A stretch of DNA of 54,933 bases. Origin: Bacteroidaceae bacterium. Lineage in GTDB: Bacteria > Bacteroidota > Bacteroidia > Bacteroidales > Bacteroidaceae. The DNA lies in the NCBI GenBank assembly GCA_017962495.1, contig JAGCVH010000037.1, forward strand, positions 1 through 54,933. Direction: 5' to 3'. Position numbers and translations under genes: made by a program. The first letter of the stretch is position 1, and the number at the start of each line of letters is the position of its first letter. Below are positions 9,532 through 37,083 of this stretch, piece after piece. Below the pieces are notes generated by a model, which was not told the DNA's origin, searched no databases, and saw nothing but the letters and a program-made list of their open reading frames with translations.

Positions 9532-10152
9532 TTATGCCATAGCCTTGCACTTTCGGATGGTGTTTACGGAGGTGCCCGTGAGTTTGCAGATGTCACGAAG
9601 GGAATATCCCTTCCGTAAGAGTCTCAACTCTTCGGCATACTGCTCTTTCATTGCATCTTCGCTCTTCTTGTAGCCTTGCTTTCGCCCTACTTTACCGCCA
9701 TTGGCACGGTAATTAGAATAACCGCTATCCATCCTCTCCTTTATGGTCTTACGTTCCATACGAGCGACCTCTGCAAGGATAGTTATGAGGAATTGGCTCA
9801 TTGGATTAACCTTACCCTCTGCGGTCAAAGTCTCAATACCATAGTTCTGAATGAAGAGTGAAATCCCCTTGCTATTCAGTAACTCTATGACTTCGAGTAC
9901 TTGCAATGTATCGCGCCCAAGTCGTGAAAGTTCTGTGACAAGCACTTTGTCAATGCGATGAGACTCGGCATAGGCGACCATATTGCGCAACTCGGTACGC
10001 TCGGTGTTCTTCTTGGCTCCACTCACCTTCTCGGTAAAGGTAGCTTCAACCGTCCAATCCCGATTCTCTGCAAGTGCAGTTAGTTCGTTCACTTGACGGT
10101 CATAGTCTTGTACGTTTGTGCTCACTCTCGCGAAAATTGCTACTCTATTCAT
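9532..10152 (-). CDS. Resolvase/invertase-type serine recombinase
   Basis: A 206-residue protein of the small serine recombinase family (Tn3 resolvase/Hin type). The catalytic serine sits in FARVSTNVQ (residues 6-14). The ELSRLGRDT motif is present, the long E helix includes ILAEVARMERKTIKERM, and a C-terminal helix-turn-helix is visible (LLRKGYSLRDICKLTGTSVNTIRKCKA). The frame is open 12 codons further upstream, but the ATG at 10152 (MNRVAIFARVS) gives the family start. It is divergent from the XRE gene across 156 bases. Likely roles are resolution of element multimers or inversion of a segment; no matching inverted site was found. Confidence 0.9.
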   Translation of the reverse strand: MNRVAIFARVSTNVQDYDRQVNELTALAENRDWTVEATFTEKVSGAKKNTERTELRNMVAYAESHRIDKVLVTELSRLGRDTLQVLEVIELLNSKGISLFIQNYGIETLTAEGKVNPMSQFLITILAEVARMERKTIKERMDSGYSNYRANGGKVGRKQGYKKSEDAMKEQYAEELRLLRKGYSLRDICKLTGTSVNTIRKCKAMA

Positions 10153-10308
10153 ACAAATTGTTTTATTATGTAATTTATTATGATGCAAAAATACAAATTA
10201 AATCAATTAAAAACAAATTTTAATAGATATTTTTATCAATTATTTGAGAATTTCTTGCTATTTTCGTCAATTCTTAGTAATTTTGCCACGAATTTACTTT
10301 ATTAGGAT

Positions 10309-12080: not shown

Positions 12081-12971
12081 CTACAAACGTCCTAAAAGAT
12101 GCTCCCAACTGACATCGAGAGTTTTGCTCTGAAATCGAATGACACTACCTAAAAAATGGAAAAACATATCTTCGAGGACGGCCTCATCAAAAAGGAAAAG
12201 AGGTGTGTTTTGGATGTCCCTACGTTCTACGTAGTTCTTAATGTCCTCTGCATTGAGGTGTACCTCTGTCCGATAGAGCCTTTGGGGATTACCATAGTGC
12301 CCCAAGATATAATTCTTATCTGAGGCGTTGCTAATCTCAGCCACTTTGTCGTAAGTCAATATCGTTATGCCTTTGCTCTTGTCCTTGATAGCATTCCGTT
12401 GCTTGATGTTTACGGTAAGATATTTGGTTTGCTTGTTGAGGCTTCCACTCGTGGTATAGGTTAGTTCTGGACGGTCTTCGTCTCGGTCTATGATACGTTT
12501 ACCGTTAAGAATGGTAGTAATGTTCTTGTTATGTGCGTATGCCTTAACAAGTGGACTTATGGAAAAAGGAGTGTCAAGACATAGGTCAAGGCTCGTTATG
12601 TTGTGGAAGACTAAACCTAACCTCTGCTCAATGAAGGTTAAAAAGTGAAAGTCCTCAGTGTATAGAGTTTCATTGTTGAGGCTCACCCACACCTTGCGCC
12701 GTCCATTTATATGGGTGTTGCTCTGCTCGTCACCTCGTGCAAGGTTAAATTTTAAGTAGCCCCACTCTATATCTCGTGTTCCGTTCCATAGTCTGATAAC
12801 ATAGACATTATCAAAGTATCGGCCATCTATACGAAATAGTCTGAACTCGACCATATCAAGGCTTTCTCCAAAGCTGAGGCTACTAAGTTGCTCGTAATAA
12901 TACGGATGCTCGACTTCATAACATAATGTTAGAGCATCAATTTGAATAGCTCTCGTACATACTCGTTTCAT
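12081..12971 (-). CDS. Replication initiation factor (Rep_trans / rolling-circle type)
   Basis: A 296-residue protein that fits the replication initiation factor family (Rep_trans, related to plasmid pT181-type and Tn916 Orf20-type proteins). Suggestive features are the central NITSLDLCLDTPFSIS, which resembles the conserved 'R.D.a.D' strand; the segment ITILTYDKVAEISN; and the late LYRTEVHLNAEDIKNY, where R, E and H could serve metal or DNA binding. The catalytic tyrosine is not certain; Y213 of the TYDK segment is one option. The protein would nick one strand at an origin to start rolling-circle replication. Its start overlaps the NUMOD3 gene by 35 bases. The family call rests on pattern only. 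Confidence 0.65.
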   Translation of the reverse strand: MKRVCTRAIQIDALTLCYEVEHPYYYEQLSSLSFGESLDMVEFRLFRIDGRYFDNVYVIRLWNGTRDIEWGYLKFNLARGDEQSNTHINGRRKVWVSLNNETLYTEDFHFLTFIEQRLGLVFHNITSLDLCLDTPFSISPLVKAYAHNKNITTILNGKRIIDRDEDRPELTYTTSGSLNKQTKYLTVNIKQRNAIKDKSKGITILTYDKVAEISNASDKNYILGHYGNPQRLYRTEVHLNAEDIKNYVERRDIQNTPLFLFDEAVLEDMFFHFLGSVIRFQSKTLDVSWEHLLGRL

Positions 12972-17984: not shown

Positions 17985-18150
17985 AGTTCGCTACGCTCAC
18001 GGAGTTCTTGAATGAATCAAGCGAGCAGAGCGTCGAGCGAAAGGGACGATACTATTCGACTGGGTGACATCCTCTCGAAATCAAATGTCCTTTTAACTCC
18101 TCTTTAACTCCTCTTTAACTCCCTTTTAACTCCACTTTAACTCCTTGTCT
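17985..18150. repeat. Composite dispersed repeat, copy A
   Basis: 17985-18072 is about 90 percent identical to 36722-36807. It begins AGTTCGCTACGCTCACGGAG and includes AATCAAGCGAGCAGAGC. It is followed at 18090-18150 by a tandem of about 11-bp units, TTTTAACTCC(TC). It lies between the VTC and DUF4956 genes. Confidence 0.9.
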
Positions 18151-21485: not shown

Positions 21486-21517
21486 GTCACATTGTCACAA
21501 AGTCCTAATGTCTCATT
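21486..21517. repeat. 8-bp-phased GTC array, copy 1
   Basis: GTCACATT, GTCACAAA, GTCCTAAT and GTCTCATT stand head to tail at 21486, 21494, 21502 and 21510, exactly 8 bases apart. Same word family as 35261-35300 and 35493-35539. It lies between the DUF3987 stop and the P5-like start. Confidence 0.8.
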
Positions 21518-23716
21518 TTAGGTAGCACATTTCTTCCATCTTCCCATTTCGAGGCGTACCACCCATTTCTCTCGATACCATCTTGAGACGGTTTTTCTGA
21601 TGGCAGTCATTGATGCACCTGGTTTCAGTGCCATAAGATCCTTGTAAGAGAACTCCGTTGGCAATTGTTCGAACACAGTTTTATTTGAACCATAACGCTC
21701 ATAGCGTTCATCCGTCTTCTGGCTTTTCAACATATCGCCAAAGAACTCCACTTGTCCATGCAGACAATGTTCAGCCATCATCAGGGCGAAGTCGATGGTG
21801 TCTTCGCTTTCCGTTTCCGTTTGCGAAAGCAGGTGATGAATGACTCCACAACGGAACCCGATTACCGCTGCACGTCGTCGATACGTGTCTGTGATGTAGT
21901 CAATGTCCTTTGCCGCTTGCTGTCGTTTTTGCTCCACCCAGTTTCCGATGGCTTGACGCAGTAGTGGAGTATCAATGAATCCTTGAATCGAACTCAACAA
22001 CTGTGCAGCTTCCACGACACGTCCTTCATCCTCCTCGTTCCTGTGTCCGTAGGTAGGCATAGGAGCAAACGCCCCATCGGGCATTTCGCTTATCAACACA
22101 CGGCTCGAGAGTCCGTTCTCCACGTTGTCCCTGCGAAAGCATCGCGTCAGAGCTCCAGGTGTTCCCAGCATCGTCCAGTTGTAAGCCACGTTCACCACAC
22201 CCGATTCGGCTTGGTCCGAGTTGTAATCCTGTCCCCACTCACCCTGGTCAAATGAAAGGCGATAGATGTCGTATTTCGACGACCACGACCCCGCAGCATT
22301 TGTCTTCCTCAGTGTGTCCAGTTCTTCCCCAAAGCTGTAGAGTATATGCCCCTGTGCGTTTTTCAATCGACGAAGCAGAGTCGAACAACTCACCGTTACG
22401 GGCAACATTCTTATGAGCACCTTCGGGTCATCCGGAGCTTTCTCATTGGCCTTACGCCCTTTTCGCATTTCACGCCACTGTTCCTCTTTTAGGCGAGCGA
22501 GAGCATCGCTTTCTGCCAACGGACGTTTCCAGATGTCTATAGCCGACTTGCACACACTCTTTCCGCTTGCCTGTTCACCTACGATGATGGACATCAACCC
22601 CAGGCGCATCCGTTCACCAGTGCAGTATTCCACCTCCACGCCGTCAGCATACGCCCCAGCAATGGGCAGAACGGCACACAAGACAGGCATGTGCATCGTT
22701 TCAGGAACGCCGATGAGACTTTCCTTCAAACCTATGGGAAGGCGTTTGAAATTTGACGATTGGACGATTTCACAATTTGACGATTGTTCCTCCGTCTGCT
22801 CTTCCTCTCCCTTTAAGGGAGAGTCAGAGAGGGTCCTGATAATTTCTTGCATTTGCTTCGAGATTCCCTTGGGATTCTCTTTACAAGCCGAGTCAACGAT
22901 GCTCTGCAACTCCGTTTCGGAGAGTCCCAGACGAGGCATAATCTGCATCAATACCTCTTTCTTATTGTCGCAAATCGAGCGCAGATTCACTGCCAGTTGG
23001 TGGAGTCTGACATTCCTCTCGCCCTCCACCGGTGTTCCGCCGGTCTTCGACCAATATTCTTCGATGATTGCGCTGTAGGGGATACCGCGAAACCGCCTAT
23101 CTCCCCGCTCTTCCCCAAGGGAAGAGGGCCCCTCTCCTTTGGAGAGGGTTGGGGAGAGGTTCTTCTCTTCCCCCTCGCCCTTTAAGGGAGAGGGCTCGGG
23201 GGAGAGGGTCCGGAATATCTCATCGTCGAGAAACAATAGGTCCTCGGCTGTTGTCGTGAAGAACACTCGGGTAATATCTTTCGCACCCTTGTCGTACTCC
23301 ACACCCAGCAGGCGACTGGCCCAACGCAGGTTCTCCTCCTGCGACATCGAGGGACGGCGACGGAAGACGAGGTGGTAACCCTCGCCACGCGCACTCAGTT
23401 CCAGCATCAGCAGACCCAGTTCGTCCTTCCTCGCCAGGATGCGCTCCTTTGTGGCCTCCATCTGATCTTGGGCGATGTGGTCGATGTCCATCCCAACGCT
23501 TGTACTCAGTCGGGTCGAACCCTTCAGCGAACCATCGTCGTTGGGCAGGCATGAATAGTTCATCTGTATCAGTCGTTGCTTCAGACTCGTGTCGCCCTGT
23601 CGGATGGCGGCAACCATACTGCGCTGGCTGTTGCGGAGATTTCGGTACTCCGTGGCCGTAAGAATGGGGCGCATCATCTTCGCCCCATCCTTATAGTATA
23701 TCATGTGTACGCTCAT
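21518..23716 (-). CDS. BT4734-type N-terminal + DUF3987 primase/helicase-like protein
   Basis: A 732-residue protein. N-terminal BT4734/VirE_N-like domain about 1-165 (SVGMDIDHIAQDQM, then GLLMLELSARGEGYHLVFRR and ITRVFFTT). A DUF3987 helicase-like domain follows from about 335, with Walker A GEQASGKS and a later SFGEELDTL. The domain pair resembles primase-helicase proteins of mobile elements, yet occurs in many chromosomal copies in Bacteroides and Prevotella, usually near HU-like and smalltalk genes. Two stretches are repeat-derived: about residues 168-207 (PLKGEGEE, LSPTLSKGEGP) and about 294-327 (SPLKGEEEQ, SSNCEIVQSSNF). They join the domains and keep frame. Confidence 0.87.
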   Translation of the reverse strand: MSVHMIYYKDGAKMMRPILTATEYRNLRNSQRSMVAAIRQGDTSLKQRLIQMNYSCLPNDDGSLKGSTRLSTSVGMDIDHIAQDQMEATKERILARKDELGLLMLELSARGEGYHLVFRRRPSMSQEENLRWASRLLGVEYDKGAKDITRVFFTTTAEDLLFLDDEIFRTLSPEPSPLKGEGEEKNLSPTLSKGEGPSSLGEERGDRRFRGIPYSAIIEEYWSKTGGTPVEGERNVRLHQLAVNLRSICDNKKEVLMQIMPRLGLSETELQSIVDSACKENPKGISKQMQEIIRTLSDSPLKGEEEQTEEQSSNCEIVQSSNFKRLPIGLKESLIGVPETMHMPVLCAVLPIAGAYADGVEVEYCTGERMRLGLMSIIVGEQASGKSVCKSAIDIWKRPLAESDALARLKEEQWREMRKGRKANEKAPDDPKVLIRMLPVTVSCSTLLRRLKNAQGHILYSFGEELDTLRKTNAAGSWSSKYDIYRLSFDQGEWGQDYNSDQAESGVVNVAYNWTMLGTPGALTRCFRRDNVENGLSSRVLISEMPDGAFAPMPTYGHRNEEDEGRVVEAAQLLSSIQGFIDTPLLRQAIGNWVEQKRQQAAKDIDYITDTYRRRAAVIGFRCGVIHHLLSQTETESEDTIDFALMMAEHCLHGQVEFFGDMLKSQKTDERYERYGSNKTVFEQLPTEFSYKDLMALKPGASMTAIRKTVSRWYREKWVVRLEMGRWKKCAT
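23095..23215. repeat. Palindromic GC-rich repeat cluster inside the DUF3987 gene
   Basis: Contains CCCTCTCCTTTGGAGAGGG (inverted repeat), CCCTCGCCCTTTAAGGGAG and related words, three small hairpins in about 120 bases. A related piece, CCCTTTAAGGGAGAG, is at 22809-22823 and a TTGACGATT-rich piece at 22745-22795. Confidence 0.8.
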
Positions 23717-23756: not shown

Positions 23757-23942
23757 AGTTAGCTTCGCTGGAGTTATCGGCCTTAGGGCCTTGGGAGTTA
23801 TCGGCTTTCAGCCTTGGGAGTTAGTGAGCTTTGCTCACGGACGATAGTTTTAGAGTATGATCCAGTCAAGTACATTCGTCCTTTTAACTCCTCTTTAACT
23901 CCTCTTTAACTCCTCTTTAACTCCCCTTTAACTCCTCTTTCG
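23757..23942. repeat. Composite dispersed repeat, copy B: hairpins after GGAGTTA, then TTTAACTCC tandem
   Basis: Four GGAGTTA words are each followed by a different small hairpin: AGC-TTC-GCT, GGCC-TTAG-GGCC, GGC-TTTCA-GCC, GTGAGC-TTT-GCTCAC. After a link like that of copy A, six CTTTAACTC words stand in tandem about 11 bases apart (23880-23940). It lies between the Rha stop and the DUF3987 start. Confidence 0.9.
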
Positions 23943-23946
23943 CGCT

Positions 23947-24630
23947 CTAGATGCGCGAAAGCAGTTGTCGGATTTCATGTTCGAACATCTCTCTCGGTGT
24001 CACGTCCACCGCCTCGCACATATCCTTCGATATGCGGACGTAGAGCGTGTAGTCGTCAGTCCCCTCGCGGACGATGCCGTGAGCCGTGCGTGCCAGCAAG
24101 TCGCGGACGGGACCGTGGTAGGGTCGGTACTCGATGAGGCGCATGGGTACGGGCATTGTGCCACCCGCGGGTACGATGAAGAACACCTGGGCACCCTTGC
24201 TTCCGCGCAGGTCGATGGTGGGGCGTCCCGTCTGCTGAGCCATCCAGCGCTCTCGCTCTGCCATCTCCAGCTGCTCCCAGCGAAGCACCAGTCGTGCGCG
24301 CGCTTCATCATTAAACTTCGTGGCGATGTACAGGGTCTCCACCTTGGTCAGTTCGTAGCAGGGGTATTCTCTCACACCTCCGTTCGGCATTTCAAGGATT
24401 CTGGATGATAGCCGAAAATTCGACCCTCGTACTTTTTCCCACGCTGGCTCCATTTTTCGGATAGCTTCCATTACGTGTTTGTGCTGCTTCCCAGTCAGCT
24501 GTGCAATCTCCAGCGAGGTCATGCGTTGCCCCTGGTTCGTCACTCCGTTGCCACTCTCTCGTGCAATTTCAAATTTTTCTTTCATTTTGTTTGAGTTGTT
24601 TGCGAGAAGAAGGTCGGATTCTTTGGCCAT
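23947..24630 (-). CDS. Rha-family phage regulatory protein
   Basis: A 227-residue protein. The Rha domain is at about 35-125: MTSLEIAQLTGKQHKHVMEA, then IRKMEPAWEKV and RILEMPNGGVREYPCYELTK, ETLYIATKFNDEARARLV. Rha proteins are prophage or element regulators that interfere with infection or development. The C-terminal 100 residues contain PMRLIEYRPYHGPVRDLL and a DYTLYVRISKDMCEAVD segment, and may be a second regulatory domain. An internal ATG (24585) is also possible. It suggests that this accessory region has a phage or mobile-element history. Confidence 0.85.
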   Translation of the reverse strand: MAKESDLLLANNSNKMKEKFEIARESGNGVTNQGQRMTSLEIAQLTGKQHKHVMEAIRKMEPAWEKVRGSNFRLSSRILEMPNGGVREYPCYELTKVETLYIATKFNDEARARLVLRWEQLEMAERERWMAQQTGRPTIDLRGSKGAQVFFIVPAGGTMPVPMRLIEYRPYHGPVRDLLARTAHGIVREGTDDYTLYVRISKDMCEAVDVTPREMFEHEIRQLLSRI

Positions 24631-26629: not shown

Positions 26630-29600
26630 TTATTCATTATTTTCCGCTGCCTGCGGCAACTCTGAGGCTGTGTGACCAAACAACTCAATGTAAGTAGCCT
26701 TACTGTTCGCCATCTCCTCTTCGTCGCTCCACTCCTCGCATTGCTTCAGCACGATGTCCATAGCGTGTTGTGCTTCTTCTGGAGGATAGTTATACTTCTT
26801 CAGCAGTCGCTTCACCATCTTTCTCATGCCAGCCCTTGCCGATTCCTTCCTTTGCCAGTCGATGGTGCGATTCTTTCGCAGAGCGTCGGTCAGTTCCTTT
26901 GTCATAGCCACCAGTTGGTCGTTCTCGTACATGTCCCTGACGGCCTGAGGGCGTGTCAGCGCATCGTAGAAGGCCTTCTCCTCCTCCGTCAGTCCCAGTT
27001 CGTTGCCCTGCTCTTCTGTCTCCCTGATTTGCTTTGCCAAAGCCAGCAATTCCTCTATCACTTCTTCGTTGGTTAGCATACCCTTCAGGTAGTTGTTCAG
27101 GACTTCATTCATCATCTCCGAGAACTTCTGACTCTGCACCAGATTCTTGTGCTGGAAGGTCCTGACTTTGTCCTTCAGCAGGCTTTCCAGTATCTTTATG
27201 CTGATGTTCTTCTCCTTCATGCGAGCCAGTTCACTCAGGAAGGATGGGTCGTTGAGCGAGAACTCCCTTCCCACATTCTGGAACAGGTTTATTACGCCCT
27301 CGCTCTTCACGCTCTGCTTCATCAGTTCGCGTATGCGTCTGTCGATGTCACGTTTCGTGATATTCCCTTTCCCACCAAGCCTGATGAGTGTCACACGCAC
27401 CGTCTCAAAGAAGGCCTGTTCCCATCGTTGCGACTCAGTAAGCAGACTTCTACACAGGGTTATGCTCTGATGCAACAGCGTAGCATGCTTTATGAAATCT
27501 GCCTTCTGCTGCTGCTTGTCGAGTGCCAGCATGAAGTTGGCGCCACCTTTGATAATGTCGGCTCTGCTGAGGTCTGTGGCATCCCTGAATCGGGAGTAGT
27601 CAAAGCCGTGCATGAGGTCGCGACAAATCTCCAGTTCCGTCTGGAACTTCTCTAATGCTACGCCCTTGACGTCGGGATCGCCGTAGCGTTGGCGGTCGTT
27701 CAGCGTGTAGGCTTTCATTGCCTCCTTCAGGGCTTGGGCAATACCTATGTAGTCTACCACCAATCCACCGACCTTGCCTTTGAACACACGATTTACACGG
27801 GCTATGGCTTGCATCAGGTTGTGGCCGTTCATGGGTTTGAACACATACATTGTGGCTAGCGAAGGCACATCGAAGCCTGTCAGCCACATGTCCACCACGA
27901 TGGCTATCTTCATGGGGTCGTCGTCGTCCTTAAACTTCCTGGCCAACTCCTGTTTGTATTGCTTGTTGCCAATGATGTCGCGCCACTCCTCTGGGTCATT
28001 GTTGCCACTCGTCATCACGCACTTCACCTTCTCCGTCCACCCTGGTCGCAACTCCAGCAGTCGCTTGTATATCTTTATGGCTATGGGGCGACTGTATGCC
28101 ACTATCATGGCCTTGCCTGTGAGTTCCTGTTCGCGGTAGTTTTCGTAGTGCTTCAGGATGTCCTGCACCAGCGAGTCTACGGTTTCGTCGGCACCCAGCA
28201 GTTCCTCCAAGTGCGACAGGTCGCGCTTGCTCTTCTCTATCTGGTCGCTTCCAGCACCTTCCTGCTCCAGCAGTTCATATTCTTTGTCGATGAGTTCCAG
28301 CGCCTCCTCGTTCAGTCTCAGGTTGATGACGCGACTCTCGTAGTACACCGGCACGGTGGCTTTGTCCAGCACGCTCTGCGTCATATCGTACACATCGATG
28401 TAGTCGCCAAACACCTCCTTCGTGTTGCGGTCTCTCAGTTCCACCGGTGTACCTGTGAATCCCACAAACGAGGCGTGGGGTAGTGAGTCGTGGATGAGTC
28501 GCGCTGTGCCGATGCTTATCTTTCCCGTTTCGGGGTTCACACGCTCTTCGAACCCATATTGTCCGCGATGGGCTTCGTCGCTCATCACTATGATGTTTCG
28601 CCTTTCGGACAGGGGTGCGTCATATTCCTCAAACTTGGCTCTGCCGAGTTCTTTCTGCACCTCGGCTGAGCAAGCGAGCTCGCTCCGCTCTCGGTTGGGG
28701 AGGAACTTTTGCATCGTGGTGAAGATGATGCCGTTTGCCGCTCTTCCCTCCAGCAACTCACGCAAGTGTTCTCTCGAGTGGGCTTGCACGGGGACCTGTC
28801 TCAGGAAGTCCTTGCATCGGGCGAACTGTCCGTAGAGTTGTTCGTCCAGATCGTTGCGGTCTGTGATGACTACGATTGTGGGCTGCACCACAGCCGATTG
28901 CAACAGGTGGGCGTAGAACACCATCGAGAGGCTCTTTCCCGAGCCCTGCGTGTGCCAGAACACACCTATCTTGCCGTCGCCAGTTACAGCCTCACGCGTG
29001 CGTTCTATGGCCTTCCTGACGGCAAAGTATTGGTGATAGGCGGCCAGTATCTTGGCGTCGCCACTCTCGTCCTTGTTGAAGCAAATGAAGTTCTTCAGGA
29101 TGTCCAGCAAATGCTCCTTCTGGAACATTCCCTCGAAGAACACATCATAGTCCACAGCCTCCTTGCTCTCGTACACACCATCCTTCGATTTCCATTGCAT
29201 ATAGCGGTCCTCGCTGGCGGTGATGGTTCCTGCCTTCGACTCCGTCATATCGCTCATCACGCAGAAGGCGTTGTAGGTGAACATCGAAGGTATCTCCTTC
29301 ATGTAGTTCTTCAGTTGTCGGTAGGCGGCGCTGGCGTCAGTGTCCTCGCGTGATGGCGATTTCAGTTCCATCAGCACCACAGGCAGTCCGTTGAGGAAGA
29401 CGATGAGGTCGGCCCGCTTCTTCGAGTGCTCCACATAGGTCCACTGGTTCACAAGGAGGAAGTCGTTGCGCTCCACATTGTCGAAGTCCACCAGATACAC
29501 GATGTCGTGCTTCAACTCCCGTCCGTCGTGATAGGTCACCTCAATGCCGTGTTGCAGGTAGTCCATGAAGAGTTCGTTGTTCTGCACCATGTTTCCTGCC

Positions 29601-29833
29601 TCTATGCGGCACACCTTGCGCTCTGCCTCCTCCAGTGCTGCTGCATGTAGCGTGGGGTTCAGCACCTTCAGCATGTGACGCAGGCGTTTGAGGAAGTAGG
29701 GGTGGAAATAATCGTTCTCCACAAAGTCGCTCTGGGCTTCCCGTCCACTCAGGTAGTTGTAGCCCAACTGCTCTGTGAAGAGTTCGATGAGCGCCTTCTC
29801 GTAGCTGTCTTCTATGAATTGGTTTGTGCTCAT
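26630..29833 (-). CDS. hsdR: Type I restriction enzyme, R subunit
   Basis: A 1067-residue motor and nuclease subunit. N-terminal PD-(D/E)xK nuclease: D142 in KKRADLIVFLNG and E156-x-K158 in VVLMELKSP. SF2 translocase: Walker A TQGSGKS (295-301), DEAH box in MSDEAHRGQYG, motif III FTGTPVELRD and the late YVFKPMNGHNLMQAIARVNR. A helical C-terminal region binds the methylase core. Intact and of normal size, so restriction should be active. With hsdM and hsdS present on the same strand the system looks complete. It is preceded by the broN-fic gene (29 bases away) and followed by the alpha-CTD-like gene. Confidence 0.97.
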   Translation of the reverse strand: MSTNQFIEDSYEKALIELFTEQLGYNYLSGREAQSDFVENDYFHPYFLKRLRHMLKVLNPTLHAAALEEAERKVCRIEAGNMVQNNELFMDYLQHGIEVTYHDGRELKHDIVYLVDFDNVERNDFLLVNQWTYVEHSKKRADLIVFLNGLPVVLMELKSPSREDTDASAAYRQLKNYMKEIPSMFTYNAFCVMSDMTESKAGTITASEDRYMQWKSKDGVYESKEAVDYDVFFEGMFQKEHLLDILKNFICFNKDESGDAKILAAYHQYFAVRKAIERTREAVTGDGKIGVFWHTQGSGKSLSMVFYAHLLQSAVVQPTIVVITDRNDLDEQLYGQFARCKDFLRQVPVQAHSREHLRELLEGRAANGIIFTTMQKFLPNRERSELACSAEVQKELGRAKFEEYDAPLSERRNIIVMSDEAHRGQYGFEERVNPETGKISIGTARLIHDSLPHASFVGFTGTPVELRDRNTKEVFGDYIDVYDMTQSVLDKATVPVYYESRVINLRLNEEALELIDKEYELLEQEGAGSDQIEKSKRDLSHLEELLGADETVDSLVQDILKHYENYREQELTGKAMIVAYSRPIAIKIYKRLLELRPGWTEKVKCVMTSGNNDPEEWRDIIGNKQYKQELARKFKDDDDPMKIAIVVDMWLTGFDVPSLATMYVFKPMNGHNLMQAIARVNRVFKGKVGGLVVDYIGIAQALKEAMKAYTLNDRQRYGDPDVKGVALEKFQTELEICRDLMHGFDYSRFRDATDLSRADIIKGGANFMLALDKQQQKADFIKHATLLHQSITLCRSLLTESQRWEQAFFETVRVTLIRLGGKGNITKRDIDRRIRELMKQSVKSEGVINLFQNVGREFSLNDPSFLSELARMKEKNISIKILESLLKDKVRTFQHKNLVQSQKFSEMMNEVLNNYLKGMLTNEEVIEELLALAKQIRETEEQGNELGLTEEEKAFYDALTRPQAVRDMYENDQLVAMTKELTDALRKNRTIDWQRKESARAGMRKMVKRLLKKYNYPPEEAQHAMDIVLKQCEEWSDEEEMANSKATYIELFGHTASELPQAAENNE

Positions 29834-29862: not shown

Positions 29863-30726
29863 CTATTCTTGCTCGTAATAATAGGAATAGTCGATGCCTT
29901 TCATAAATGTCTCGCGGTCGTCAATCTTGTCTGTGAGGGCTTGATGCAGCAGCTCTCGAATCTTGCTGCCGTCCATCTCGCTTTCTATCATGGCACTGAG
30001 ATAGTCGCGTTTGCCTATCTTACTCCAATCGATACAGAGACCGAGTCTTTTCTTCAATATCAGGTCGAGCCAAATGCGCGTGCTTCGTCCGTTACCTTCC
30101 ATAAACGGATGGGCCATGTTCATTTCTATATACTTGTCCACAATCTCATCGAATGTGCTATCTGGCATTCCCTCTACCGTTTGCAGATATTGGTGCAGAT
30201 GCTCGGCCAGACAGAAAATAGTGTTACCTTTCGAAATCGTCTGGGTGCGTATCTTGCCAGCAAAATCATATAGCCCACCAAACAGGAAGGCGTGTATCTG
30301 TTGCAGGCTCTTCACCGTTCCTGGTTTCATGTCGTCGAGCAGTCCGCTCTCCATGAGAGTATAAGCCTTTTTCTTGCTCTGTCCGTCAATGGTGTTGTCG
30401 CTATATACGAACCAGTCGAGGAAATCTGCTGTTTTCTTGCTTGGAATCACCCTTACTAATTGAATGATATCGTCCTGAGCAAAACAATCAGTAGCATATT
30501 GCTTACCATCGGCGGCTGTCATTTTCAGTTGACTACAACGTGTAGTCAACTCGTTCCCAGCCTTCTTCAGTCGGGTTTTCAATACACTCCAATACTTTCT
30601 CGGACTCGGGCTATCCGTAATGGCGCCAACAATATCCACAATAGAAAACCACCATAGAGATTTCTCCTCGTCCCATACAGCCCGCACCTCGCGGTCATTG
30701 AAAAACCTTATCGACTTCTTGCTCAT
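29863..30726 (-). CDS. Bro-N / Fic fusion protein (putative AMPylase)
   Basis: A 287-residue protein with two domains. Residues 1-110 are a Bro-N type domain (VRAVWDEEKSLWWFSIVDIV, later CFAQDDIIQLVRVIPSKK). Residues about 118-275 are a Fic domain, with FGGLYDFAGKIRTQTISKGN at 149-168 and the complete catalytic motif HPFMEGNGRSTR at 206-217. Fic proteins transfer AMP (or other moieties) from nucleotides to target proteins; H206 is the expected base. No [ST]xxxE[GN] self-inhibition motif was found by eye. It lies inside a type I restriction operon between hsdS and hsdR, which suggests a role tied to restriction control or a toxin-like back-up. Confidence 0.93.
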   Translation of the reverse strand: MSKKSIRFFNDREVRAVWDEEKSLWWFSIVDIVGAITDSPSPRKYWSVLKTRLKKAGNELTTRCSQLKMTAADGKQYATDCFAQDDIIQLVRVIPSKKTADFLDWFVYSDNTIDGQSKKKAYTLMESGLLDDMKPGTVKSLQQIHAFLFGGLYDFAGKIRTQTISKGNTIFCLAEHLHQYLQTVEGMPDSTFDEIVDKYIEMNMAHPFMEGNGRSTRIWLDLILKKRLGLCIDWSKIGKRDYLSAMIESEMDGSKIRELLHQALTDKIDDRETFMKGIDYSYYYEQE

Positions 30727-30755: not shown

Positions 30756-32006
30756 TTATAACGTTACATCCCCCACTTTTATTTCACCAGACATCAGGCG
30801 AGGCAAAAGGGTGTCACGAAGTTGGGATAAGCGGTCGTTTTCAAGACATAAATAACCTATCTTTTCATAAAGAGGGTATGCAATATCATTAAAAGACGAC
30901 ACAATAGACGGCGAAGGGATAACAACATCTGACCCTTCTACATTATTTTTATTAATATGTTGTTGTGCTCCTCCTGTCATATGAGACATTAGTTCACCAA
31001 TCTTTTCTTTAATGAGAGGGTAAATAAAAGAATAAGGATAATCTTCATTCTCTAAAACCCCAATTACTGACTGATTTGCACAAGAATCTATCTCCAATAA
31101 ACTGACCTGACCTAATGTAGCCCCTGTAATAGCCAATACTGTAGTTTTCTTTGGGAGAAGTTTGGTCGCAGAACGATTTAGACCTTCTTCTGTTATAAAC
31201 TCAGAAGGAGTCGTTATTCTAAATCTATTAACTTCACCAGAATTTATCCAAGCAATTTTACCACCCCAAAAATTGGGATTATCTCTGCTTGGAGTTCCAC
31301 CTAATATGCATTTGCACATCTCACCAAGTGTTCCCACTCTCCACCCTTTGGGAATCATGCCCAATTCGCTTTCCACGAACTCACCATCACGGAAAGGTTC
31401 GAAGTCCACGAACCACGACTTAAACAACGCCTGTGCCTGCTGCTCTAAATTATCGTTTATCCGCCTATTTACCTCGATTTTGTCATCGAGGGATTTAAGA
31501 ACCCCACATATTCTCTTTTGCACGTTTAACTCTATAGGAAATGATATCTTCATTTTGCCTAATGTACTTTTAGGTAGTTGGGGTTGAGCTGAGCCAGAAA
31601 CAAATTGAGCTATTTGATTCTGAAAACGACTTCCTTTTAGGAAATAGTAAAGATATTCAGGGAGAATATCTCTTCCTCCTTTTAATATTAGCATTCCAGA
31701 GTTTATTCTTACGTGTTCATACGGAACGGATGAATCATATAGTGCAACATTACCAACAGTTCCCCTAGTCGTTATTACCACATCATTTCTTTCCAACCGA
31801 CCTTTTCGCAACAATTGATCTTTATCTTCTGTTATAAAAGCATTGTCTGAAAACGAAAATCCTGATTTCGTTACATTTCCGGCATTTAAAAAAAGACAAT
31901 ATCCTTGGGAGAAAAAATCGCTATTCTTAGGATAGTTCTTTCCTCTATCACCATCTATCATTTGAATAGATGTTTGTTCTATTATAGACTCTTTCCACTC
32001 TTCCAT
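30756..32006 (-). CDS. hsdS: Type I restriction enzyme, specificity subunit
   Basis: A 416-residue protein with two target-recognition domains. TRD1 lies about 1-150 (FLNAGNVTKSGFSFSD, GTVGNVALYD, SAQPQLPKSTLGKMKI), followed by the conserved helix with LKSLDDKIEVNRRINDNLEQ. TRD2 is about 225-370 (GMIPKGWRVGTLGEMCKCIL, ITGATLGQVSLLE), followed by a second helix with DTLLPRLMSGEI. It sets the DNA sequence recognised by the methylase and nuclease. ATG at 32006 (MEEWK) is preferred; an ATG four codons upstream (32018) would overlap the membrane ORF by 10 bases. The 16 bases around the start are duplicated at 32661-32676. Confidence 0.95.
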   Translation of the reverse strand: MEEWKESIIEQTSIQMIDGDRGKNYPKNSDFFSQGYCLFLNAGNVTKSGFSFSDNAFITEDKDQLLRKGRLERNDVVITTRGTVGNVALYDSSVPYEHVRINSGMLILKGGRDILPEYLYYFLKGSRFQNQIAQFVSGSAQPQLPKSTLGKMKISFPIELNVQKRICGVLKSLDDKIEVNRRINDNLEQQAQALFKSWFVDFEPFRDGEFVESELGMIPKGWRVGTLGEMCKCILGGTPSRDNPNFWGGKIAWINSGEVNRFRITTPSEFITEEGLNRSATKLLPKKTTVLAITGATLGQVSLLEIDSCANQSVIGVLENEDYPYSFIYPLIKEKIGELMSHMTGGAQQHINKNNVEGSDVVIPSPSIVSSFNDIAYPLYEKIGYLCLENDRLSQLRDTLLPRLMSGEIKVGDVTL

Positions 32007-32007
32007 A
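31992..32007. repeat. 16-bp direct repeat at the hsdS start, copy 1
   Basis: TTTCCACTCTTCCATA, identical to 32661-32676, 669 bases apart. It encodes the start MEEWK on the minus strand in both places. Confidence 0.9.
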
Positions 32008-32008
32008 C

Positions 32009-32629
32009 TTAATGACATTTTAAGCTAAGTAGGCCAATGACAAAAGCAACGGCTATGGAGACCCATGTGGCTATCTGTTGCTTACGGAAACGGATATCCT
32101 CCTCTGTCCTGAAGTTGTTATATACAAAATTCACTAGGTCTTGACTAACGTGATAGGCCGAGAAAAAGATATTTTCAAAAGGGCGAACCATCTCTGTACA
32201 CTGACACCAACAATAGAGAGAATCTTTATTGTAATCGACCCAGTCAGTACACATATCTGTGAGTATAATGTACTCCTTTCCACCATCCACCTTGTTTATA
32301 TCAATTTTATACCTCGTAACATTCTCTTTGCCAATGGCAAGTGGACGATTGTGGGATGAAGGAAAGGCTACGAGCAAACGCTCTTTATAAAGTTTCTCCA
32401 ACAGAGCCAGAAGTTCGGCTAATAGACCTCGCACTTTTTGTTCGTCTTCCCAGTCGTATTGGTCACGGCGATAGAACAAATAATAGCTTTTATCATCCTT
32501 TACAGCAATGGCCCATCCCTGATTCTCCAACAAGTGACTCTTGTTGAACATATCAGCCAAAGACTCGGCATCGTCCCTATACGCTACGATGGAGCGGATG
32601 ATATCGCGTTCTCTTTTGTTAAATCTCAT
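32009..32629 (-). CDS. Hypothetical protein with C-terminal membrane anchor
   Basis: A 206-residue protein without a recognised family. It is soluble and charged, with aromatic strands (NQGWAIAVKDDKSYYLFYRR, EYIILTDMCTDWVDYNKDSL), and ends in one hydrophobic segment, IATWVSIAVAFVIGLLSLKC, likely a tail anchor. It is lodged in the restriction operon between broN and hsdS, and exactly flanked by a 16-bp direct repeat that duplicates the hsdS start. This suggests that it was inserted there. A tail-anchored protein in a type I operon could be an accessory defence factor, but nothing proves it. Confidence 0.75.
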   Translation of the reverse strand: MRFNKRERDIIRSIVAYRDDAESLADMFNKSHLLENQGWAIAVKDDKSYYLFYRRDQYDWEDEQKVRGLLAELLALLEKLYKERLLVAFPSSHNRPLAIGKENVTRYKIDINKVDGGKEYIILTDMCTDWVDYNKDSLYCWCQCTEMVRPFENIFFSAYHVSQDLVNFVYNNFRTEEDIRFRKQQIATWVSIAVAFVIGLLSLKCH

Positions 32630-32685: not shown

Positions 32686-33522
32686 CTATTTGTCTTTATC
32701 AGTACTTTCAGGCAACAGATGGTCACTTGCCTTGTCCTTGGTGATAACACTGCGACCCAACTTGCTCTCCAGTTGTTTGCGTGCCGCCTTGGCAACACTG
32801 CCGCCTTCTTTTGCCACCTGCGTTTGAGCATTGAAGCCCTTGGGATTGCGGTCTTTTGAGAGTTCTGTGGCTGATGCCTCCGCAAGTATGTTAAGGGCTA
32901 TCTCCAGATTCGTCATGTTATCGCGCAAGTTTTCCTTTTTCAAGCCCTTAAAGTGCTTATATTGCTTGGTGGTGAAACCGCTCCATTCGCGGGTGATAAT
33001 ATCGGTTAGCGAGGCGTATTCCAGTCCTTCTTTCACTCCTGTACGCTTCCACTCATCGGTCAGTTCCTTACGCACTTCTATCGACTTTATACGCTGGTTG
33101 ATCCAAGCCTCGCTATACCCCAAACGCCTGTAGTCAACAATTGCCTGTTCAATGCTCAGTTCAGGGTCTTGCATCTGGTCGAGACGCTGGCTTGCCACCT
33201 GCGCCATCCATTGCTTGAAAGGTTCTGCTTTAGGGGAAGGGATGGACTGTATGATGCGAAAAAGACCTTCCTGCCTGGCGCAATTCACTCGTTGCTTGCC
33301 ACCAGGAGTCTGTAGCGAAAGGGGGGTGACAATTTGTCCCCACCCTTTAGCAAGTTCAGGGTCACGCTTCTTCATTTTCTTAATGTAATCAGTTGGGTTG
33401 ACACTATCTGTTAGTGCTTCCACAACATCTACTACGCAGAAGTACCACTTCTCTTCCTGATCGTCCCACACTGTTCGCACCTTGCGTTGTTCAAATAGTT
33501 GTAAGGCTTGTTTCTTTGTCAT
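32686..33522 (-). CDS. Bro-N domain protein of phage-antirepressor / DinD type
   Basis: A 278-residue protein. The Bro-N domain (1-105: QRKVRTVWDDQEEKWYFCVV, then VNPTDYIKKMKKRDPEL, RQEGLFRIIQSIPSPKAEPF) is paralogous to that of the Fic fusion 2 kb downstream. The remainder (SIEQAIVDYRRLGYSEAWIN, IITREWSGFTTKQYKHFKGL, RKQLESKLGRSVI) matches the C-terminal part of DinD-like antirepressor proteins. Such genes are found in type I restriction operons in many bacteria; a DNA-binding regulatory role is likely. It follows hsdM by 25 bases. Confidence 0.9.
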   Translation of the reverse strand: MTKKQALQLFEQRKVRTVWDDQEEKWYFCVVDVVEALTDSVNPTDYIKKMKKRDPELAKGWGQIVTPLSLQTPGGKQRVNCARQEGLFRIIQSIPSPKAEPFKQWMAQVASQRLDQMQDPELSIEQAIVDYRRLGYSEAWINQRIKSIEVRKELTDEWKRTGVKEGLEYASLTDIITREWSGFTTKQYKHFKGLKKENLRDNMTNLEIALNILAEASATELSKDRNPKGFNAQTQVAKEGGSVAKAARKQLESKLGRSVITKDKASDHLLPESTDKDK

Positions 33523-33547: not shown

Positions 33548-35071
33548 TTAATTGGAAGTGATGTTTATCTTAAACCCAATACTCCCCAACTGCTTCTTGA
33601 TTTCCTCCTCCAACTGGTGGCTTTCGGCAAAGAGACCGCTGAGTTCTGAGGTCAGGCGTTGCATCTTCTCAGCAAACGGTTCGCCATCGTCCTCCTGCTC
33701 GGCAATGCCTACATAGCGACCTGGGGTGAGGATGAAGTCCTGCGCTTCGACGTCGGCAAGCGAGCGGACTGCACAATAGCCCTTCTCGTCCTCGAGAGTC
33801 CCCTTGCGATAGTCCCTGAAGGTCTGGGCTATGCGTACGATGTCCCCCTCCGAGAGTTCACGCAGTTTGCGCGTCACCATAGTTCCCATGTTGCGTGCGT
33901 CCACGAATAGCACCTTGCCAGGCTGTGACTTCTGACGCGAGAGGAACCACAGACACACAGGGATGCCTGTGGAGTAGAAGAGCTGACTGGGTAGGGCTAC
34001 GATGCCCTCTACGAGGTCGGCCTGCAAGATGTTCTTACGAATATCGCCTTCGCCTCCCGACTGACTGCTGAGCGACCCATTGGCAAGCACCATACCGATG
34101 CGGCCTGAGGGCGAGAGGTGACTGATCATGTGTTCCAACCACGCAAAGTTGGCATTGCCCTGTGGGGGTATACCATAGCGCCAGCGAACGTCCTCCTGCA
34201 GGCGGTCGGCACCCCAGTCGCTCATGTTGAAGGGGGGATTAGCCATCACGAAGTCGGCCTTCAGGGTGGGGTGTTGGTCGTCGAAGAAGGTGTCGGCATT
34301 GCGGTCGCCCAGATTGGCTTCGATGCCTCGGATGGCGAGGTTCATCATGGCCATCTTGCGTGTGTTGGCATTGATTTCCTGACCAAAGATGCTCAGGTTC
34401 TTGATGTCGCCCTGATGGTGACGAACGAAGTCGGCACTCTGCACAAACATGCCACCCGAACCACAGGCAGGGTCGTAGCAACGCCCGTGGAAGGGTTCCA
34501 ACACAGCCACTATGGTGCGAACGATGCACGAAGGGGTATAGAACTCTCCTGCGTTCTTTCCCTCGAGTGAGGCAAAGCGTGAGAGGCAGTATTCGTAGGT
34601 GCGTCCCAAGAGGTCTTTATTCTCCTCCTGACGCCCTAGTTCCAGTGTGTTGGTGAAGAGGTCCACCACATCGCCCAGACGACGTTTGTCGAGTTCTGGA
34701 CGGGCAAAATTCTTGGGCAGAATACCACGCAGACGGTCGTTTTCACGCTCTATTTCCATCATGGCTTGGTCTATGACCTTGCCAATCTCTGGCGTGTGGG
34801 CAGCTGCCGAAATCACACTCCAACGTGCATCGGCAGGCACGTAGAATATGTTTTCCGACGTGTATTCGTCCTTGTCTTCCTCAAATCCGTCGCCTTCTTC
34901 CACCAATTGCTGGTGTTTGAGGTCGAATTGGTCACTGATGTACTTCAGAAAAATGAGTCCTAACACCACATTTTTATACTCTGCAGCGTCGATGGAGCCT
35001 CGCAGGAGGTCGGCTGCTTTCCATATCTTATCCTCAAACCCAAGGTCGGCCGTATTTTGTTTCTTTGCCAT
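33548..35071 (-). CDS. hsdM: Type I restriction enzyme, N6-adenine methylase subunit
   Basis: A 507-residue DNA methyltransferase. N-terminal HsdM_N helices (FEDKIWKAADLLRGSID, LGLIFLKYISDQF), SAM-binding motif I YDPACGSGGMF and catalytic motif IV ANPPFNM mark the N6-adenine type. C-terminal helices bind hsdS. With hsdS it methylates the host site, with hsdR it cleaves unmodified DNA. ATG at 35071 (MAKKQNT) is the family start; a longer frame begins at 35089. First gene of the leftward operon; TATCTTTA, near the -7 consensus, lies about 30 bases upstream (35099-35106, minus strand). Confidence 0.97.
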   Translation of the reverse strand: MAKKQNTADLGFEDKIWKAADLLRGSIDAAEYKNVVLGLIFLKYISDQFDLKHQQLVEEGDGFEEDKDEYTSENIFYVPADARWSVISAAAHTPEIGKVIDQAMMEIERENDRLRGILPKNFARPELDKRRLGDVVDLFTNTLELGRQEENKDLLGRTYEYCLSRFASLEGKNAGEFYTPSCIVRTIVAVLEPFHGRCYDPACGSGGMFVQSADFVRHHQGDIKNLSIFGQEINANTRKMAMMNLAIRGIEANLGDRNADTFFDDQHPTLKADFVMANPPFNMSDWGADRLQEDVRWRYGIPPQGNANFAWLEHMISHLSPSGRIGMVLANGSLSSQSGGEGDIRKNILQADLVEGIVALPSQLFYSTGIPVCLWFLSRQKSQPGKVLFVDARNMGTMVTRKLRELSEGDIVRIAQTFRDYRKGTLEDEKGYCAVRSLADVEAQDFILTPGRYVGIAEQEDDGEPFAEKMQRLTSELSGLFAESHQLEEEIKKQLGSIGFKINITSN

Positions 35072-35260
35072 AATCGATTGTTTTCGCACATTTCGCCGTA
35101 AAGATACGAAAAAGATAGAAGAAAGTGAGGATGATGAACGGAAAAAATTATTGCTCCGTCAGAATATGGTGCTCGGCTCAGAGAGAAAAGTCAACGAAAA
35201 CAGTACATAAACACAAACTTACTCATATAATATCCGTGAAAACCTCATAACTAAGGTTGA

Positions 35261-35300
35261 AATGTGACTGTCGGACAATGTGACAATGTGACATTGTGAC
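35261..35300. repeat. 8-bp-phased array, left arm (five nnnnnGAC units)
   Basis: AATGTGAC, TGTCGGAC, AATGTGAC, AATGTGAC and ATTGTGAC stand head to tail, exactly 8 bases each. They are inverted relative to the right arm. Confidence 0.88.
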
Positions 35301-35355
35301 ATTTATTATTATTCAAGGTGCAAGGGTGGAGAAGTGAATACGTCTCCTATGGGTT

Positions 35356-35442
35356 ATTATAATATATAATAAATTATATATTATAATAAAATTATATATA
35401 TTATATACTATTATAATTGTATACTATATAATAATAATCTAT
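35356..35442. other. Almost pure A/T block
   Basis: About 90 bases made nearly only of A and T, with many TATA/ATAATA words. It is centred between the two inverted 8-bp arrays, like the easily melted part of an origin. Confidence 0.85.
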
Positions 35443-35492
35443 AAGCAATCTGTTGTGGGCAATCGGAACCGCGCACATGGATTTCGCTTATT

Positions 35493-35539
35493 GTCACAAT
35501 GTCACAATGTCACAAAGTCATGTTGTCTAATGTCGTTTT
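35493..35539. repeat. 8-bp-phased array, right arm (GTCnnnnn units)
   Basis: GTCACAAT, GTCACAAT, GTCACAAA and GTCATGTT at 35493, 35501, 35509 and 35517, then GTCTAAT and GTCGTTTT. The first five starts are 8 bases apart. The order resembles the copy at 21486-21517. Confidence 0.88.
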
Positions 35540-36081: not shown

Positions 36082-36621
36082 ATGGCAAATCGAATTATTG
36101 GTGCAATTCCCTATTCCTTGGGATTGCGATTGAAGAATCCTTCGGAGAAGGACAGTGAAAAGGAAATTGTGGCATTCCGACAGGAACGTGAGACCATCGA
36201 CCTCGACCTCCTGGCAAAGCACATCAAGGAGCACGGAAGCTCGTTCTCCAAGGGTACCATCTATGGTGTACTGCAGGACGCAGTGGAGTGCATCGTGGAG
36301 TGTCTGCAGGGCGGCTACGGCGTGCTGCTCAACGGCCTCGGCAAGTTCGGCATCAGCCTGAAGTGCTCGGGTGCAGACATGGACGAAGAGTTCTCCGCCG
36401 CCAACATCACGGGTGTGCGTGTGACCTTCAACCCTGACGGAGAGATGATCCACCAGCTGAATACGAACACGGAGTTCGAGTACGTCGGCTCTCGTGCCGC
36501 TCAGATGCAGGCGAAGAAGGAAGAAAAGGCCCGCGTAGCCGCTGGCGAAACCACCGAAAGCATCACCCCTAGCTCGGGCAGTGGCTCTGGGTCTGGAGAT
36601 CCTGGAGATGTGACTCCCTAA
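36082..36621 (+). CDS. HU-like DNA-binding protein (Bacteroidetes HU paralog)
   Basis: A 179-residue protein of the HU/IHF superfamily in its Bacteroidetes long form. The first 125 residues hold the domain: VAFRQERETIDLDLLAKHIK, HGSSFSKGTIYGVLQDAVEC, YGVLLNGLGKFGISLKCSGA, and VTFNPDGEMIHQLNTNTEF. The lysine/alanine helix and the serine/glycine tail (SSGSGSGSGDPGD) are not part of the fold. Such genes come with DUF3987 and smalltalk genes in Bacteroidales, as here, though the DUF3987 gene is now 12 kb away. Probably a nucleoid-type protein for a local or mobile-element function. Confidence 0.9.
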   Translation: MANRIIGAIPYSLGLRLKNPSEKDSEKEIVAFRQERETIDLDLLAKHIKEHGSSFSKGTIYGVLQDAVECIVECLQGGYGVLLNGLGKFGISLKCSGADMDEEFSAANITGVRVTFNPDGEMIHQLNTNTEFEYVGSRAAQMQAKKEEKARVAAGETTESITPSSGSGSGSGDPGDVTP

Positions 36622-36963: not shown

Positions 36964-37083
36964 ATGAATCCTGAACGTAAACGTGAACTTTGTCGCTTCC
37001 TCTGGAAGCTTTTGACGGCGCTATTGGCCGCCTTCGGAGGTGCAACTGCCGCTAATGCTGCAATAGCATTTGGAATCCTCTAA
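36964..37083 (+). CDS. Smalltalk family protein (39 aa)
   Basis: A 39-residue protein beginning MNPERKRELCRFLWKLLTAL and continuing to AAFGGATAANAAIAFGIL. A basic N-terminus, one hydrophobic helix and a small-residue-rich (G/A) segment are the marks of the 'smalltalk' proteins of Bacteroidetes, which are nearly always beside HU-like genes. Role unknown; a single-span membrane peptide is likely. A terminator follows 7 bases after the stop. Confidence 0.85.
   Translation: MNPERKRELCRFLWKLLTALLAAFGGATAANAAIAFGIL

Follow-up and report, generated by a model that had tools for sequence, protein, structure and literature searches.

Iterons lying directly downstream of a helicase gene have been described in Staphylococcus aureus pathogenicity islands (SaPI; Rep/ori) and in the staphylococcal cassette chromosome SCCmec (Cch2), the Cch2 iterons being 5 nt long (PMC7581432). 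The alpha protein of phage P4 unites primase, helicase and winged helix in one protein that binds the origin repeats (PMC4234260). Inverted doublets dispersed in extragenic DNA, with a cognate gene linked nearby, are known as REPIN/RAYT systems (doublets of repetitive extragenic palindromes, REPs, and REP-associated tyrosine transposases; PMC3116915). BrickBuilt and other miniature inverted-repeat transposable elements (MITEs) of Porphyromonas gingivalis are small intergenic elements with 23-bp repeats and ends like those of the insertion sequence IS5 (PMC4596501). Our analysis concerns an element at positions 35,261–35,539 of contig JAGCVH010000037.1 from a Bacteroidaceae bacterium; the window analysed is the entire contig (C93, 54,933 bp) of the draft genome G000 (2.95 Mb, 104 contigs). 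The element consists of inverted arrays of 5-bp units around an A/T core. We regard it, with a probability of about 0.72, as the principal component of a replication origin of iteron type, belonging to a chromosomal island that carries restriction genes and has its own DUF3987 initiator. The features on which this reading is built are the following.

35264..35300, + strand: left array, five units phased at 8 bp (GTGAC, CGGAC, GTGAC x3)
35354..35440 (end approximate), no strand: A/T-rich palindromic core, nearly pure A/T, candidate DNA-unwinding element
35493..35536, - strand: right array, inverted (GTCAC x3, GTCAT, GTCTA, GTCGT)
21518..23716, - strand: DUF3987 protein, 732 amino acids, with primase-like N-terminus, MCM-like AAA+ domain and modelled C-terminal winged helix; proposed array-binding initiator
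21486..21514, - strand: single 3' array of four units at a phase of 8 (coding strand: GAGAC, AGGAC, GTGAC, GTGAC), two of them degenerate

The initial annotation had described five left and about six right units, phased at 8 bp and opposed around an A/T block, and direct reading of the sequence bore this out. The left units start at 35264, 35272 (the degenerate CGGAC), 35280, 35288 and 35296. On the right, GTCAC starts at 35493, 35501 and 35509, GTCAT at 35517, GTCTA at 35525 and GTCGT at 35532, so that the final spacing is 7; four units are degenerate, one of five on the left and three of six on the right. The inner edge of the right array is GTGACAATAAG on the - strand. The longest complementary arms are 30 nt each, 87% complementary, with 194 nt between them, and the core reaches 98% A/T in its best 60-nt stretch. 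A search for inverted arrays of any 5-mer (at least three exact units, spacing 5–12, gap 60–400) returned the GTGAC element, listed as three overlapping 5-mers, as the sole inverted pair in the 54,933 bases, and none in each of 40 dinucleotide shuffles of the window. With 3 mismatches allowed, TGTGACAATGTGAC has 18 matches in the window vs 5.8 expected, a number reached in 0 of 100 shuffles. Folded as single-stranded DNA, 35263–35527 gave −49.8 kcal/mol vs −21.3 (sd 3.4) for shuffles. The A/T core recurs, at 62–78%, in all 31 element rows read (30 distinct elements). As in iteron origins, tandem short direct repeats thus stand at fixed spacing, an A/T-rich region, predicted to melt, lies beside them, and a cognate initiator is encoded nearby, the match between protein and repeats being seen by covariation only.

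The proposed initiator ends just before the 3' array, which sits past the stop codon of its gene. In Pfam, 40 of 41 members of the protein set match the DUF3987 ATPase at E 0.01 or better, the window protein scoring 20.5 bits vs a curated cut-off of 27. Structure comparison, whose rows cover mainly residues 321–670, showed the ATPase domain to be MCM-like, and a search of solved structures by sequence found no relative (best E 0.19). Primase motif II is sxH. In the window protein the motifs hhhDhD and sxH correspond to D77-x-D79 and H115 and are largely intact, D77 being replaced in 5 of 39 ungapped alignment rows; motif I (hhhDhD) is taken from PMC5862659. The C-terminal winged helix is a predicted fold, in which residues 708, 711 and 714 are three apart along the modelled recognition helix. 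The domain order of helicase and predicted C-terminal DNA-binding domain, together with an array 3' of the gene, is SaPI-like.

Named relatives of this protein come from Prevotella-like bacteria, many of them from ruminants. Profile A1 at E 1e-30 matched one of 148 genomes of the wider order, namely the window's own; of the other genomes listed, just two belonged to the same family. No match to the protein was found in 72,556 plasmid records. The earlier suggestion of a former plasmid or phage is better replaced by a chromosomal island with phage-like genes. Viral contigs gave 20 pattern matches, none related. Phage records yielded two unannotated faecal contigs, one of them with a full-length homologue (27% identity) and a GGTCATTAA-type array 3' of the gene. 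The human faecal contig L357 (MT839699.1), which is filed as phage, has a DUF3987-like gene with a GGTCATTAA-type array and then a small DUF5675-like gene (by eye) after it, and for this reason the layout may extend past the rumen genus.

The arrangement seen in the window is conserved. When sequence past the stop codon was read for 30 DUF3987-type genes, at least 10 (L089–L098) had three or four like units at spacings of about 8, 7 and 8, in most cases with ATTAAGG or a near form of it at the end; their units are GTGAC, GTAAC, GTAGC, GTTGC or GTCCC, and the remaining genes have GTCAT-like or unclear repeats. An array was found 3' of the DUF3987 gene in 57 of 73 loci, 23 of them with TAAG at the array's end; the count takes in simple slippage repeats of 7 bp. 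Controls gave 1 of 73 inside the gene and 0 of 73 after shuffling. Six of 79 homologue loci (L278, L279, L285, L292, L295, L296) were excluded from the 73 as truncated or partial. The initial annotation had asked for a search of other DUF3987 loci, and for the upstream unit we checked 29 loci, made up of 14 of the 79, 13 further stretches, the window and G005. The layout of inverted element, cargo, DUF3987 gene and array, with one shared unit per locus, was present in 16 of them (window, G005, L218, L219, L223, L225–L228, L364–L367, L371, L373 and L374), and in each the full inverted pair of the gene's unit lies 2.5–16.6 kb before the stop codon. The unit itself differs between these loci (GTGAC, AAGAC, GTCCC, GGGAC, GCCAC, GTTGC/GTAGC). 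L220 has one arm only of the inverted pair. No upstream element was found in 12 of the 29, 11 of which have at most 6.5 kb of contig before the gene. Other tested units gave no array away from the gene end in 14 loci, except GTCAC, the reverse complement of GTGAC.

It was predicted beforehand that a gene's unit should make inverted pairs elsewhere in the same genome. The search of the genus genomes found inverted pairs of at most 400 bp for 7 of the 12 combinations of genome and unit that have a matching gene vs 5 of the 94 that have no known one (four unit searches, with gene units as pre-assigned plus G003:C16 for GTGAC, and the GTGAC search without G065). G003 and G070 were missed for GTWGC in the exact search, and the pair is present once mixed or shorter units are allowed. 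The pattern of three GTGAC units matched in 27 of 61 genomes, and GTGAC inverted pairs of at most 400 bp occurred among these 61 in G000, G003, G005, G006, G009, G017 and G029. As a separate observation, a different initiator (BT4734-like N-terminus and VapE-like ATPase) at 486–3048 of L077 (G019) is flanked by inverted GTGAC arrays, and L076 and L078 are stand-alone copies with the same four-array layout.

The unit varies together with the winged helix. For the first covariation test 24 proteins were picked from a close clade with units readable by eye (14 of the 73 loci and 10 of the 30); L229, which has a run of N, was dropped, and the 23 left include the near-duplicates L218/L223 and L225/L228. 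Residue 708 followed the third base of the unit best (z 7.4, rank 1 of 471 columns), and residue 711 came second. These tests carry no formal correction for phylogeny; a pair test was limited to pairs of 40–62% overall identity among 26 proteins. There, residue 708 was the same in 60% of 58 pairs with the same third base and in 3% of 155 pairs with different third bases (rank 1 of 434 columns). For the whole unit, in the identity band of 30–70%, column 711 outranks 708. Third base G (GTGAC, AAGAC) goes with K or Q at 708, A (GTAAC, ATAAC) with M, C (GTCCC, GCCAC, GTCAC) with N or T, and T (GTTAC, GTTGC) with V or T. L376, L372, L229 and L222, which were outside the first test, fit this pattern. 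Because residue 708 covaries with the third base, direct reading of the units by DUF3987 is by far the simplest explanation, and judged from these sequences the protein very probably binds the arrays of its island.

The initial annotation had likened the element to a replication origin. That likeness has since gained the 3' array, the conserved layout and the covariation of unit and winged helix, and because of these three the iteron reading and the link with the primase-helicase are strongly supported; replication itself would follow the scheme proposed here. The C-terminal winged helix of DUF3987 (21518–23716) would bind the 5-bp units, and the two opposed arrays would position a pair of helicase rings face to face at the A/T block. 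The block would then melt and the fused primase begin synthesis. The array past the DUF3987 gene may form a second cis part of the origin, and the adjacent HU protein could help bend the site. The island carries restriction-modification cargo.

Further copies of the element stand alone. In G000, TGTGACAATGTGAC is exact at two places beyond the window element, namely the 21486–21514 array and a second complete inverted element on C12, with the same locus-specific variant in both arms; a looser pattern brought out a third element, on C10. Two elements of G005 share 89% identity over 214 bp, with ends at most 5 bases from the outer units and unrelated flanks. In G082, homology stops no more than about ten bases from the array ends in two of three pairwise comparisons (88% and 85%), and in the third (82%) it goes on for another 150 bp at one side. 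Homology also extends beyond the arrays in G016 and G006, by about 25–110 bp. Presence also differs between relatives. The G005 island is missing in relatives, 8 of 11 having both flanks on one contig with 0.2–2.5 kb lying between, and the gap as read in G114, G136, G076, G035, G133 and G095 holds no DUF3987 gene and no array. Its site looks like an insertion hotspot, since G133 (L329) and G095 (L345) carry a small nucleotidyltransferase/HEPN-like gene pair (by eye) there. The G017 element, which lies between galM-like and folC-like genes (by eye), is lacking in 8 of the 13 relatives that were read; these eight keep its neighbours, and the other five have other neighbours. The G005 element on C39 is common to G133, G076, G136 and, as far as the contig reaches, G114. 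A search for exact empty sites with target duplications did not yield any, because the flanks are too diverged. A possible but doubtful proposal is that the stand-alone elements represent a novel class of mobile DNA that is not autonomous: parasites made of an origin alone, which the island primase-helicase would copy in trans. If so, each genome would hold several orthogonal element families, each specific through a matched winged-helix recognition code.

Three side observations concern such elements. G000 has more inverted-array families, on C17 (89768–92661), C20 (57357–57706), C43 (8135), C12 (8031–8181) and C50 (20506), with the units GGGAC (own DUF3987 gene and HU-like neighbour, by eye), GTTGC, GTTAC and GTCCC-ATTAAGG; they are apparently independent of the GTGAC family. 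L380 and L381 (G016) are 87% identical over 298 bp, with all units GTAGC in one and GTTGC in the other, and since every unit differs, both arms changed together. Contigs of relatives begin less than 100 bases before the array, inside or beside the element core, in L056, L071 and L072, so that assemblies seem to break at the element.

The other genes of the window island and its surroundings are as follows.

36082..36621, + strand: HU-HIG DNA-binding protein, divergent from the element (Pfam PF18291, 4.6e-21)
36964..37083, + strand: small hydrophobic open reading frame (ORF), 39 amino acids, 'smalltalk'-like
33548..35089, - strand: type I methylase HsdM, cargo
32686..33522, - strand: Bro-N antirepressor-like protein (PDC-S13), cargo
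30756..32018, - strand: type I specificity subunit HsdS, cargo
29863..30726, - strand: Fic/DOC protein (PDC-S04), cargo
26630..29833, - strand: type I restriction enzyme HsdR, cargo
23947..24630, - strand: Rha/antirepressor-like phage regulator
20962..21447, - strand: endolysin-domain protein adjoining the 3' array (PHROG 873, 3.1e-32)

The primase/helicase-like and HU-like genes that had been noted from the sequence are thus the DUF3987 and HU-HIG genes. Six loci, chosen for an HU-like neighbouring ORF, have an HU-HIG gene next to the element according to Pfam; in L226 and G005 none was seen by eye. The cargo proteins tested are of restriction-modification and antirepressor type, with type I systems in the window and N6 or Eco57I/MmeI-type methylases in L058, L223, L225 and L228. 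The 'smalltalk'-like ORF at 36964..37083 had no NCBIfam hit. An Rfam scan of the window found two tRNAs only. Near tRNA-Leu at 7705, the window also has a serine-recombinase gene and a replication-protein-like gene (both by eye) at 9532–10188 and 12081–12971, with 34–40% GC, and this stretch is possibly another mobile element. An 11-bp tandem repeat, TCCTCTTTAAC, is present twice, at 18088–18145 and 23879–23940.

Several observations do not sit easily with an island origin. GTAGC has S or T at 708, not M, and groups with GTTGC, an exception to a rule based purely on the third base. When the C-terminus was modelled by itself and with no alignment, the order of its structural elements stayed the same, at low confidence (pLDDT 55.8). 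The 3' array of the window is half degenerate, with an inner edge that differs from ATTAAGG, and the window island may accordingly be decaying or no longer active. No element was found in the 10.4 kb before the DUF3987 gene of G082 (L368). Inverted pairs occur where no DUF3987 gene of that unit is known (GTGAC in G006, G009 and G029; GTAAC and GTCCC in G008), and G030, G078 and G022 have an array after the gene and no exact inverted pair in the unit searches. No integrase was recognised in the island among the subset of window genes searched. Most island elements, moreover, lie between divergent genes, where a regulatory site would also be expected.

This last point touches the possibility that the arrays are operators or enhancers, with DUF3987 as an ATP-driven regulator, and govern the expression of HU, of the cargo operon and of the gene for the endolysin. 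Such a reading explains winged-helix binding equally well. Ten of 13 placed island elements are between divergent genes; the window and L058, first scored co-directional owing to an ORF overlapping HU, are also divergent by their Pfam-named neighbours, and L374 is convergent. In the window and in L219, too, the gene that follows closely on the 3' array is of endolysin or DUF5675 type. A regulator, however, needs no A/T core in every copy, the protein has primase motifs and an MCM-like fold, and the 13 stand-alone copies placed occur in all gene orientations (co-directional 6, divergent 4, convergent 3); we therefore consider an operator improbable. Rather less credible is that the elements are transposon ends or miniature forms moved by an unrelated, unseen transposase, the DUF3987 link being hitch-hiking. 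The ends near the outer units in G005 and in two of the three G082 comparisons, and the presence or absence between relatives, would suit a transposon, but the unit covaries with the initiator winged helix, reading of the loci, mostly by eye, revealed no recognisable transposase between arrays, inspection by eye showed no target duplication, and homology runs 25–150 bp past the arrays in G006, G016 and one G082 pair.

The initial annotation had also offered a partition site, and clustered short sites near an HU gene do recall parS; yet no ParA/ParB gene was recognised in the window island, for which no dedicated search was made, and the cognate protein is a primase-helicase, which leaves this suggestion very unlikely. 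With about 190 bp separating its inverted repeats, the element recalls the invertible promoters of Bacteroides, and phase variation through such a promoter was considered as well; a third array of the same unit kilobases away past DUF3987 in 16 loci, and the lack of any recognised recombinase gene beside the window element, make it a still fainter prospect. Microsatellite drift or chance, to which the frequent short tandem repeats of the window (62 rows) might have pointed, is refuted by 0 of 40 shuffles, the layout in 16 of 29 loci and the unit/protein covariation, and its probability is negligible: the differences of unit seen among relatives go hand in hand with the module. As to a chromosomal origin, a local GC-skew minimum near 34–35 kb coincides with a change of gene direction, and dnaA is on another contig (C30); neither settles the place of oriC, and this candidate was rejected.

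Island origins with iterons are already known. As far as the open-access literature was searched, the family to which the initiator belongs looks new, as do the layout in two parts with its inverted element, the recognition code found in nature and the cognate copies dispersed in the genomes, and the accessible portions of the open-access DUF3987 literature describe no origin for DUF3987 proteins. DUF3987/BT4734-like proteins occur in gut and rumen Bacteroidales, and our finding proposes an origin for them. It also offers a readable protein-DNA code, in which many natural initiator/array pairs of differing specificity are directly testable by binding assays, and it explains one family of repeats scattered in intergenic DNA. 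It suggests, too, that self-replicating islands are the vehicle of some restriction systems in these bacteria.

By analogy, the window module matches the replication-module logic of SaPI, SCC and P4. With SaPI and SCCmec it shares an island-encoded helicase with a C-terminal DNA-binding domain (here predicted) and iterons directly 3' of the gene; unlike them, it occurs in another phylum, its initiator is a BT4734-like primase fused to DUF3987, a second element with inverted arrays lies kilobases upstream, stand-alone copies are numerous, and no integrase was recognised. Phage P4 has two cis regions, the second being crr. By description, the module resembles P4 in these two cis regions and in the union of primase, helicase and (here predicted) winged helix in one protein; it differs in that its arrays are inverted around an A/T core and no helper phage is known. 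Compared with REPIN/RAYT, the linked gene is a DUF3987 primase-helicase and not a RAYT tyrosine transposase, and the units are 5-bp iterons and not palindromic REPs. Like BrickBuilt, the elements are small, intergenic and repeat-containing in Bacteroidales, but here the arrays form the element ends and match a primase-helicase.
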